A stretch of 64,000 nt of DNA from a bacterium (GTDB lineage Bacteria; Bdellovibrionota_C; UBA2361; RFPC01): assembly GCA_030428205.1 (NCBI GenBank), contig JAUIBK010000003.1:1-64000 (forward strand). The letters run 5' to 3'. Positions within the stretch are counted from its first letter, which is position 1; every line of letters begins with the position of its first letter. Below, piece by piece: positions 17,943 through 47,513 of the stretch. Both the position numbers and the translations under genes were made by a program. The notes beneath the pieces were generated by a model. That model had not been told where the DNA came from, made no database searches, and worked only from the letters and a program-made list of their open reading frames with translations.

Positions 17943-18299
17943 GAACTACTCTCTCTTTCAGTGGGCGAGCTCTAACTACGAAATCCTCTTAATCCTCGCC
18001 TTTGAGCAGTTATCGTGCGGTGGCGAGCAAAGTTTCCTAGAAACGAGAATAATTCTCTAAGTGCTCGAATGTATTGAACGAAAGTTATTCTAAGGACTTT
18101 TGAGGGCTTACTCAAATTTTTCTTGCGCCTGACCGAGAGGAGCATTTACGGATAGTTACGGAGCTATCGGAGTATGAAATCTAAAGGTTATATGCGGTGA
18201 AATTCTAACGCGAAGTACGCGAGGTACGCGAGGTACGCGAAGGAGGTTGAGCTTCGCGTACCTCGCGTACTTCGCGTTAGAACATCACAATAGTAAAGA
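17943..18299. other. Intergenic region upstream of cpaE
   Basis: This 357-nt stretch has no credible gene. It holds the palindromic repeat copy at 18205-18280 and presumably the promoter of the Tad operon, but I could not identify a convincing -35/-10 pair. Confidence 0.5.
18205..18280. repeat. CGCGAAGTA-family palindromic repeat, hairpin copy
   Basis: The left arm (18205-18242) consists of CTAA followed by 9-nt units CGCGAAGTA, CGCGAGGTA, CGCGAGGTA and CGCGAAG. The right arm (18252-18280) is its reverse complement lacking one 9-nt unit. The loop is about 9 nt. The same sequence recurs at 25909-25939/26322-26352 and 47358-47426. This copy lies 3' of the TPR gene. The one-unit difference shows that the arms gain or lose whole units. 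Confidence 0.9.
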
Positions 18300-25892: not shown

Positions 25893-26321
25893 TTATTCAT
25901 TTTGAAAATTATAACGCGAAGTACGCGAGGTACGCGAAGGGGGGATGTAGGAGTTTACGACACGTACTATTCCGTCCTTTAGGTGTGGTGTATTGAAGTT
26001 GAGAAGTAATCCAACTCGCTTTTCAGCCAGCTTGAGATAAGTAAGTAGCTGGGCTTTATGAATGGGAACAAGTCGATGAACTGATTTGAGCTCTACAAGA
26101 AGAGAGTCCTCAACAAGTAGATCGATCCTATAGCCCACCCCGAGCTCGATATCATCGTATATCACAGGAACTCCTACTTCGTGGAACACCGAAAGGCCCT
26201 GCTTCTCAAGCTCATACTTAAGACAGACCTTATACACTTCCTCAAACAAGCCCGCTCCAAGCCTAGAGTGAACAGTCATCGCTGCAGCTATTACCTTGCT
26301 ACTTACTTCATCAAATTCCAT
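25893..26321 (-). CDS. GxxExxY protein, PD-(D/E)XK nuclease-like, inside an inverted repeat
   Basis: The 142-residue protein carries Gly24-x-x-Glu27-x-x-Tyr30, the defining motif of the GxxExxY family. It also has G-Y-R-I-Asp67-L-L-V followed by Glu77-Leu-Lys79, the active-site pattern of PD-(D/E)XK nucleases, then P-I-H-K-A-Q-L-L-T-Y-L and G-L-L-L-N-F-N. The ATG lies one base from the inner end of a 31-nt repeat arm at 26322-26352, and the last part of the protein (P-S-R-T-S-R-T-S-R-Y-N) is translated from the mirror arm at 25909-25939. The gene thus fills the loop of a long inverted repeat. The family is widespread and of unknown function; nuclease activity is inferred from the motif. Confidence 0.9.
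   Translation of the reverse strand: MEFDEVSSKVIAAAMTVHSRLGAGLFEEVYKVCLKYELEKQGLSVFHEVGVPVIYDDIELGVGYRIDLLVEDSLLVELKSVHRLVPIHKAQLLTYLKLAEKRVGLLLNFNTPHLKDGIVRVVNSYIPPSRTSRTSRYNFQNE
25909..25939 (+). repeat. Left 31-nt arm of the GxxExxY-bracketing inverted repeat
   Basis: TTATAA followed by CGCGAAGTA, CGCGAGGTA and CGCGAAG. It is the exact reverse complement of 26322-26352 and equals the hairpin arms at 47358-47387. On the minus strand it codes for the C-terminus of the GxxExxY protein. Confidence 0.95.
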
Positions 26322-26352
26322 CTTCGCGTACCTCGCGTACTTCGCGTTATAA
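26322..26352 (-). repeat. Right 31-nt arm of the GxxExxY-bracketing inverted repeat
   Basis: Exact reverse complement of 25909-25939. On the minus strand it is the immediate 5' leader of the GxxExxY gene: it supplies GCGAGG and CGAAG just before the ATG and a TATAAC at its outer end that could act as a -10. Confidence 0.95.
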
Positions 26353-26494
26353 TCATTTCCCTCTTCTATTCGTAGAAACTAATAATAAGTTGCTCCCCTT
26401 TCGCCAAACCCTTAAAATCGCAGAACATCATGAACCTCCGCAGTACACCTACGGGTGAAGCCTAAATATACGAACAAGATCGAACAATCACTCT

Positions 26495-44128: not shown

Positions 44129-45041
44129 CGCTCGCTACCTCAAGCTCTCAAGCGCTCTTTTGTATCGAATACACGGTCGCCATGCTACACGCTACTTACA
44201 CTCCAGGCTTACACAAAATGTTTCAAGCATTCCCGTTGGTGCTGGAAAAAAATCAGCACTGACAGATGCAAGCGCAAAAGTCATCGCTCTGTTTACGATC
44301 CTACGAGAGTCAGAAGACTCTTACCTCTTTCTTTGTGATGGAGGCTCAAGCGATGAGATTGCCGCAGCACTGCTTCAATTTCGAGTTGCCGAGGACGTTA
44401 CTCTCGACATTCTCAGCGATTACCAACTGATTCACGTTGCACCGCTCGATGGAGCTCTTGAGACACCACACCTTGAAGAACCAGGCTCTCCTTCAGAGAT
44501 AACTTGGAATAAGCAGGGTGAACTTGTTCTCGTAAGGTGCCAACGCCTTCAGGCCAAGGGCGTTGATATCCTCGCTCCGCGCTCTACTATCACGGATTAC
44601 ACTGCCAAGCTCGACCAAAACGGTGCGACTCTCCTGACCGATGCCGAGCACACCGCAGAAAGGGTTTTAGCCAACGCACCAATCTTTCCTCTCGATCTTG
44701 TTCCTGGTGCTCTACTCTCCGAAGTAGATCTCGACACATACGCATCGTTCACAAAAGGATGCTACGTCGGGCAGGAAGTATTAGAGAAGATCTCTGCTCG
44801 TGGCAAAGCCCCCCAGAAACTTTTTCCTGTAGTACTCGGTGAACAAGCCGAACTTCATGGTAATGACACCTTAGGACTAGCTAAGACAGAAGAGGAAGAA
44901 AATGCACTGCTCGGAAAGCTCCTTGTGGCGGCTTACGATACTAGCACGGGAAAAACCTACGGCTTTGCACGACTTAAGAACAGAGACAATTTAAGTGGCA
45001 AACCTGTTCTTGTAAACGGCTCTCTTGGGCAGATACTATAA
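44115..45041 (+). CDS. ygfZ: YgfZ/GcvT-like folate-binding protein
   Basis: The ATG at 44115 lies inside the 3' end of lepB; a TTG at 44109 is an alternative. The ~308-residue protein has the GcvT-like fold and the family signature K-G-C-Y-V-G-Q-E, plus L-P-S/D-L-type segments (P-L-D-L-V-P-G-A-L). YgfZ helps synthesis or repair of certain Fe-S cluster enzymes, in a folate-dependent way. The stop codon lies within the edge of a repeat copy (45037-45096). Confidence 0.92.
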   Translation: MSSANARYLKLSSALLYRIHGRHATRYLHSRLTQNVSSIPVGAGKKSALTDASAKVIALFTILRESEDSYLFLCDGGSSDEIAAALLQFRVAEDVTLDILSDYQLIHVAPLDGALETPHLEEPGSPSEITWNKQGELVLVRCQRLQAKGVDILAPRSTITDYTAKLDQNGATLLTDAEHTAERVLANAPIFPLDLVPGALLSEVDLDTYASFTKGCYVGQEVLEKISARGKAPQKLFPVVLGEQAELHGNDTLGLAKTEEEENALLGKLLVAAYDTSTGKTYGFARLKNRDNLSGKPVLVNGSLGQIL

Positions 45042-45047
45042 CGCCCC

Positions 45048-45096
45048 CTTCGCGTACTTCGCGTACTTCGCGTACTTCGCGTACTTCGCGTTATAA
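45048..45096. repeat. One-armed tandem copy of the CGCGAAGTA repeat family
   Basis: Five CTTCGCGTA-type 9-nt units in tandem, all the same variant, ending in CGCGTTATAA. On the left only TATAACG (45037-45043) remains of the other arm, followed by a C-rich spacer. It lies between the convergent stops of ygfZ and the kinase gene. It shows unit expansion in one arm and loss of the other. Confidence 0.88.
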
Positions 45097-47084: not shown

Positions 47085-47513
47085 TGCTTCCCTAAAGCAA
47101 AGTTCTACTTCACTTCTATAATTCGGCGATTTTGCAGAAGATCTTTACTCCCTAGGGCCTTTCGAGGAACACCTCGGCAAGCATCCCTCTCCGAAACAAA
47201 ACATCCTATAACTTAGGGGGGTTACCGTAGAACTTTCAACTGAGGCACCGCATCAACCTGCTTTTAGATCATGGTCCGAAGACTCTTCTTCGATGAAGTT
47301 CGTCCAGAGTAGAGTCTCAGTGGACTTCTCTTTTCTTGTCGATCCAGAAAGTATTAATATAACGCGAAGTACGCGAGGTACGCGAAGATCCCCCCCCTTC
47401 GCGTACCTCGCGTACTTCGCGTTATAAATTTTTCAATCACAATATCTGCAACTGACCAAAGTGATCACCAAGAATCAGAAGTCGTAAGACCCCTATCAAG
47501 AGAGACGCCACCA
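47085..47513. other. Intergenic region between divergent kinase and pyrE genes
   Basis: A 429-nt stretch without a credible gene. It holds the perfect repeat hairpin at 47358-47426. No confident promoter was identified, although both genes should be transcribed from here. Confidence 0.5.
47358..47426. repeat. CGCGAAGTA-family palindromic repeat, perfect hairpin
   Basis: A 30-bp perfect stem: left arm 47358-47387 (TATAA, CGCGAAGTA, CGCGAGGTA, CGCGAAG) and its exact reverse complement at 47397-47426. The 9-nt loop is C-rich. The arm is the same sequence as the arms flanking the GxxExxY gene, but here the gene is absent. It lies in the divergent kinase/pyrE gap. Confidence 0.95.

Follow-up and report, generated by a model that had tools for sequence, protein, structure and literature searches.

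The window analysed here (the whole stretch of DNA, 64,000 nucleotides long) contains a GxxExxY gene lying between inverted arms, and further copies of the arm sequence that hold no gene. The assignment of the gene to the GxxExxY family, made in an original prediction on this DNA, is borne out by whole-domain matches to TIGR04256 (140 bits, curated cut-off 35) and PF13366 (139 bits, curated cut-off 22), both far above the cut-offs. The locus is flanked by a carbonic-anhydrase-like ORF and a transporter ORF, and no Rfam family matches anywhere in the window. The features are as follows:

25893..26321, minus strand: GxxExxY gene (TIGR04256/PF13366), 142 aa, with catalytic-type residues D67, E77, K79, Q91 and Y95
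25908..25939, no strand: arm 1, 3′ of the gene and translated into its C-terminus, three 9-nt units
26322..26353, no strand: arm 2, 5′ of the gene, reverse-complementary to arm 1 without mismatch and directly next to the ATG
26354..26420 (approximate extent), minus strand: 5′ leader with a GCAACT motif (26388-26393) common to same-order GxxExxY elements
18203..18282 (approximate), no strand: gene-less hairpin, one arm with an extra unit, outer ends TTCT/AGAA
39936..39953, plus strand: short palindrome remnant AACGCGTACTTCGCGTTA, degraded copy
45040..45096, plus strand: degraded or rearranged copy in which TTCGCGTAC units form a single arm
47358..47426, no strand: gene-less hairpin with the same arm sequence as the gene, 30-bp stem

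The two arms are exact reverse complements, as the original prediction had it, but they measure 32 nt each rather than 31, and each consists of three 9-nt units of the CGCGAAGTA type. The start of the ORF directly abuts the inner end of the right arm, whilst the left arm is read through by the ORF and encodes ...SRTSRTSRY; the gene thus begins against one arm and has its C-terminus encoded by the other, as had been described. Folded as single-stranded DNA, the gene-less hairpin at 47358-47426 reaches -39.8 kcal/mol (z -15.6) and that at approximately 18203-18282 reaches -38.7 kcal/mol (z -10.2), with no shuffle equalling either, and both of these previously proposed hairpins are real. Moreover, a search with a 27-nt arm sequence, allowing up to 3 mismatches, returned 10 matches in the window against 0.00 expected, and chance can therefore be excluded for these copies.

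The source genome holds one GxxExxY gene, a single copy, and the extent of the leader is accordingly approximate. At a number of loci (L001, L032-L034, L038, L044, L045, L047, L051) GCAACT lies ~40-90 bp before the start codon and is followed by a variable small hairpin. The conserved GCAACT region upstream of GxxExxY genes may be a promoter, a leader or an end of the element.

The GxxExxY protein

Across 72 aligned proteins D67, K79, Q91 and Y95 are invariant and E77 is nearly so (at least 90%). The two gene copies of genome G027 give a dN/dS of 0.064, and the protein is under purifying selection. A structural model (pLDDT 89, pTM 0.82) found its best matches in Cas4 and LHK-Exo/lambda exonucleases (prob 1.00, E 2e-3 to 1e-1), a resemblance at the superfamily level (best E 2e-3, TM about 0.4-0.5). 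From its D...ExK motif and the alpha/beta nuclease core of the model, the protein is predicted to belong to the PD-(D/E)XK nuclease superfamily, and the model supports a putative DNA nuclease of a minimal Cas4/lambda-exonuclease-like kind. The likeness to Cas4 extends to a weak profile match over the active-site region. However, GxxExxY comprises only ~120 residues, lacks the iron-sulphur or other added domains, and is here not in a CRISPR or recombination operon. Searching by sequence for relatives of solved structure returned nothing meaningful (RelE at E 0.28).

Two other roles were considered and rejected: a defence gene, as PADLOC gave only weak Cas4 profile matches (E 0.002-0.03), and phage cargo, as there were 0 matches in 50,697 phage records; among plasmid records there were seven only.

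Hairpins across the source genome

The source genome assembly spans 3.76 Mb in 81 contigs and is 92% complete. In it a 15-mer from the arm core, one mismatch being allowed, has 98/88 matches, compared with 0/0 for the reversed-pattern control, and a 17-mer of the arm has 48/53, compared with 0-4 in each of 55 other genomes searched. Family-level relatives are without its hairpins. From genome stretches around the arm matches we extracted 46 gene-less hairpins with the arms of the gene; the genome-wide search that had been proposed for the arm with and without its gene therefore ends with one gene and dozens of gene-less hairpins.

These 46 hairpins mostly have two to four units per arm and a loop of roughly 9-20 nt, the usual frame being TTTAT|AACGCG...CGCGTT|ATAAA, with the AT-rich TTTAT and ATAAA ends in the flanks. 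Their midpoints fall within ORFs of at least 100 aa in 5/46 cases, compared with 1353/1500 random window positions. The partner arms of a hairpin are more alike than shuffled partners (0/2000 shuffles), which shows coupling and is not proof of selection on structure, since the copies may share descent. Just beyond the arms, the bases at position 2 of the two ends can pair with each other in 28/36 hairpins (17.3 expected), and the complementary run averages 3.0 against 2.3 (7/5000 shuffles). No direct target-site duplication is evident at the 46 hairpins; instead the outer bases are complementary, as if insertion had occurred into small palindromic sites NT|AN′ or the ends had been copied from each other. 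Two hairpins in unrelated contexts (L148 and L158) have an identical 67-nt core, loop included. One contig, C47 of the source genome (G000), starts within a hairpin (C47:5-58), suggesting that hairpins break the assembly, and hairpin copy numbers are therefore lower bounds.

About a third of the hairpins in the source genome (~18) occupy one constant position within a ~280-bp MITE-like repeat bounded by terminal inverted repeats CCCAGATCCACGGG(T)AAG, and part of the copy number may therefore be owed to that repeat. Empty paralogues were sought among the copies with repeated flanks and none was found, every full ~280-bp copy containing the hairpin. At L136, L148, L156, L163, L166, L167, L172 and others, the MITE-like repeat has terminal inverted repeats CCCAGATCCACGGGTAAG and the hairpin is always interior. 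Further hairpin families, with CACCGAG or CACGGAG as their unit, were observed on G000 contigs C16 and C49-C58 (L314-L321); some have the arm order reversed (ACC-inward), and no cognate GxxExxY gene was found for these families in the source genome.

GxxExxY elements in other genomes

A scan of genome contigs yielded 80 GxxExxY loci in at least ten phyla, and the gene is present in 58 of 214 sampled genera, about a quarter. A search on the phylum of G046 returned that genome alone. Genes and shifted controls were tested for inverted arms with the same geometry, a best score of at least 14 being counted. Tandem-unit inverted arms bracket 51/80 of the genes compared with 5/480 shifted placements, these five being partly other copies of the element, and the suggestion that GxxExxY genes at large be examined for such arms was thus borne out in this sample. 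The arms have a common grammar, often (T)NACC[AG]C[ACG][AG]AG with at least one CRCRRAG unit after it. The units themselves vary from element to element, even inside single genomes (G171, G130, G243). At three loci (L058, L074, L132) the gene lies between two complete hairpins, likewise an arrangement known for RAYTs between REPs.

Genes of PF05635 (23S_rRNA_IVP, a four-helix bundle; L342-L371) had been chosen as a specificity control. Inverted arms were found at 22/30 of them, compared with 3/180 controls; therefore the inverted tandem-unit architecture is common to two unrelated proteins, and GxxExxY elements probably represent a subclass within a wider type of element. The arm period is 7 nt in 17/21 PF05635 arms, against 8-10 nt for GxxExxY.

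Gene and hairpins are also associated between genomes. Within genus g14 (12 genomes), the four genomes that carry a GxxExxY gene or fragments of one have 132, 17, 11 and 4 matches to the genus arm pattern, whereas the other eight have 0-1 each (p 0.002). A wider sample took in 230 genomes, most of them unrelated; ten or more generic-arm matches were present in 17/60 genomes with the gene and in 3/170 without it (p 1e-8). Many gene-bearing genomes have few matches to the generic pattern, in part because arm units differ between elements. Genome G007 has 24 generic-arm matches and at least 19 PF05635 genes, and no GxxExxY gene was detected in it. The association is strong but not absolute, with G007 as the exception. 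Arms occurring irrespective of the gene had been named beforehand as evidence against mobility; what we find is that gene and hairpin abundance track each other across genomes.

Over ~570 bp the gene cassettes of G027 (two copies) and G024 are 86-90% identical; their ends coincide and their surroundings are unrelated. They take in ~120 bp upstream of the arm, including the GCAACT motif that is also present upstream of the window gene. The mobile unit is thus discrete, but in these multi-copy cases it is larger than the gene plus arms that had been supposed. In G182 (C1:785500-829000, L322-L324) we observed GxxExxY cassettes arranged head to tail with a 472-bp period, two gene copies of the array containing the same further insertion.

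The comparison of relatives for empty sites, likewise recommended earlier, revealed one gene site and one hairpin site that are unoccupied. In G017 the orthologous site of one cassette is present and the cassette is absent. Ten congeners hold the orthologous site of one G022 hairpin, and this ACAAAGAG hairpin is absent in the nine whose interval was read; the interval of G027 is too short for it, and that of G025 contains a different palindrome. The sister sites lacking gene or hairpin have diverged, blurring the insertion boundaries, and could in principle reflect loss instead of insertion. Hairpin positions conserved between relatives, the other pattern said to speak against mobility, were not seen at the sites tested. 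For the window gene, the flanks in family-level relatives are too diverged to reveal any empty site.

A candidate nuclease-driven element and its rivals

A mobile, palindrome-based element with gene-bearing and gene-less forms is well supported by these data. The original prediction, partly supported here, regarded gene plus arms as a mobile unit and the gene-less hairpins as its derivatives. Arms with and without the gene, the association of the two and the empty sites all agree with this, whilst the descent of hairpins from gene-bearing units is something we infer. On balance we favour the explanation that gene and arms form an autonomous miniature mobile element, that the gene-less hairpins are its non-autonomous derivatives, and that the GxxExxY nuclease, the likely mover, mobilises both. 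A gene-less hairpin would then consist of the arms and a short loop, the gene having been lost from an autonomous element. The nuclease would recognise the tandem-unit arms once they have been extruded, at replication forks for instance, into a hairpin or cruciform, and would cut this structure at its base. Host replication or repair would then place the freed hairpin or cassette into another small palindromic site rich in AT. Enzyme and hairpins would form a REP/RAYT-like pair, with a PD-(D/E)XK nuclease replacing the HUH tyrosine transposase. To our knowledge, no stand-alone PD-(D/E)XK transposase has been described, which counts against this explanation, as do the lack of any evident target-site duplication, the hairpins of G007, the CACCGAG and CACGGAG families with no cognate gene detected, the many gene-bearing genomes with few generic-pattern matches, and structural matches at the level of the superfamily.

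Alternatively, the hairpins may be moved by another enzyme, such as a RAYT/IS200-type Y1 transposase or, by way of the 280-bp MITE, one of the DDE type, with GxxExxY as a passenger or secondary settler. Candidate enzymes exist, since there are four Y1_Tnp genes in the source genome and such genes in 11/12 g14 genomes; the MITE-like repeat enclosing ~18 copies has terminal inverted repeats of its own, and G007 has hairpins without a GxxExxY gene. However, Y1 genes are as common in g14 genomes that lack hairpins as in those that have them, whereas the presence of GxxExxY does separate the two groups, and the 20 Y1 loci fetched had none of the arms in question (of g14 or of the source genome) apart from one weak match that looks like chance, so that a RAYT as cognate enzyme is not supported. 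Nor do most of the source-genome hairpins lie within the MITE, no full copy of which is without a hairpin. We consider this explanation unlikely. A lower probability still attaches to a process at the RNA level like that of the 23S intervening sequences (IVS), in which the arms would pair in the transcript, RNase III would clip them, spread would proceed via RNA/cDNA (retrohoming) or recombination, and the protein would handle an RNA or cDNA hairpin. PF05635 genes, which have the same architecture, count the 23S IVS proteins among their relatives and show a resemblance to the DGR factor Avd (PMC10053308), and in Coxiella the terminal repeats of the IVS form a 28-bp stem that RNase III cuts, mobility having been proposed for this IVS (PMC4990558). 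The GxxExxY hairpins, however, are here intergenic and outside rRNA, and the protein model resembles DNA nucleases. An ordinary host role for the hairpins (as terminators, mRNA stabilisers or REP-like protein-binding sites), the gene having inserted among them by chance, would accord with their intergenic location and strong folding, but is very improbable in light of the gene-centred bracketing at 51/80 loci, the lineage-private units, the cross-genome association, the absence from close relatives and the want of conserved positions at the sites tested.

The favoured nuclease-driven element resembles REP/REPIN sequences and their RAYT (TnpA-REP) in having few palindrome-flanked enzyme genes and tens to hundreds of dispersed, gene-less intergenic palindromes, enzyme and palindromes matching within a genome. 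It differs in that the enzyme is of the predicted PD-(D/E)XK nuclease type (PF13366) and not HUH Y1, that the arms are tandem 8-10-nt units, and that no GTAG/GGAG foot tetranucleotide was noticed, the hairpin flanks in the source genome showing AT-rich TTTAT/ATAAA ends. The system thus works like REP/RAYT without being a member, its enzyme not being an HUH Y1. The earlier idea of REP/RAYT-like logic with a different fold stands as regards the fold (PF13366, Cas4/LHK-Exo-like model), but the same architecture also serves the unrelated PF05635. The 23S rRNA IVS with S23p/IVP (PF05635) share a small ORF within terminal inverted repeats, but differ in protein fold and unit length (7 nt rather than 8-10 nt), and GxxExxY loci were seen outside rRNA genes; the window locus, between carbonic-anhydrase-like and transporter ORFs, does not have the 23S rRNA location of an IVS. 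MITEs are likewise short non-autonomous inverted-repeat elements, but the hairpin cores here show no evident terminal duplication, and the enzyme that goes with them is of another kind than a DDE transposase.

Recurrence of the gene-arm-hairpin pattern across at least ten phyla suggests a little-noticed miniature mobile DNA family, driven by a nuclease rather than by a known transposase. More tentatively, and with considerable doubt, this could be a categorically new mobility system in which no transposase, recombinase or reverse transcriptase takes part and a stand-alone PD-(D/E)XK nuclease moves both ORF-less hairpins and the hairpin-bracketed gene that encodes it. It would belong to a superclass of inverted-tandem-unit elements that includes the PF05635 elements (7-nt units, including 23S IVS), with the unit period varying in step with the protein family. 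The open-access literature searched contained nothing on GxxExxY arms or hairpins, the papers in it that mention the name being off subject, and searches of it with the arm sequences gave no match. The link to dispersed palindromes provides a testable function for a widespread orphan family and would explain repetitive hairpins in many environmental genomes; it would represent a second REP/RAYT-like system, enzymatically independent of the first. Moreover, how 23S rRNA intervening sequences move is a long-standing question that the PF05635 parallel makes testable.

Lastly, several Acidobacteria have the GxxExxY gene at one constant chromosomal place, and residence of the gene can therefore be long. 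In several Gammaproteobacteria (L076, L100, L108) the element apparently lies, as judged by eye, between RuBisCO large-subunit-like and CbbQ-like genes.
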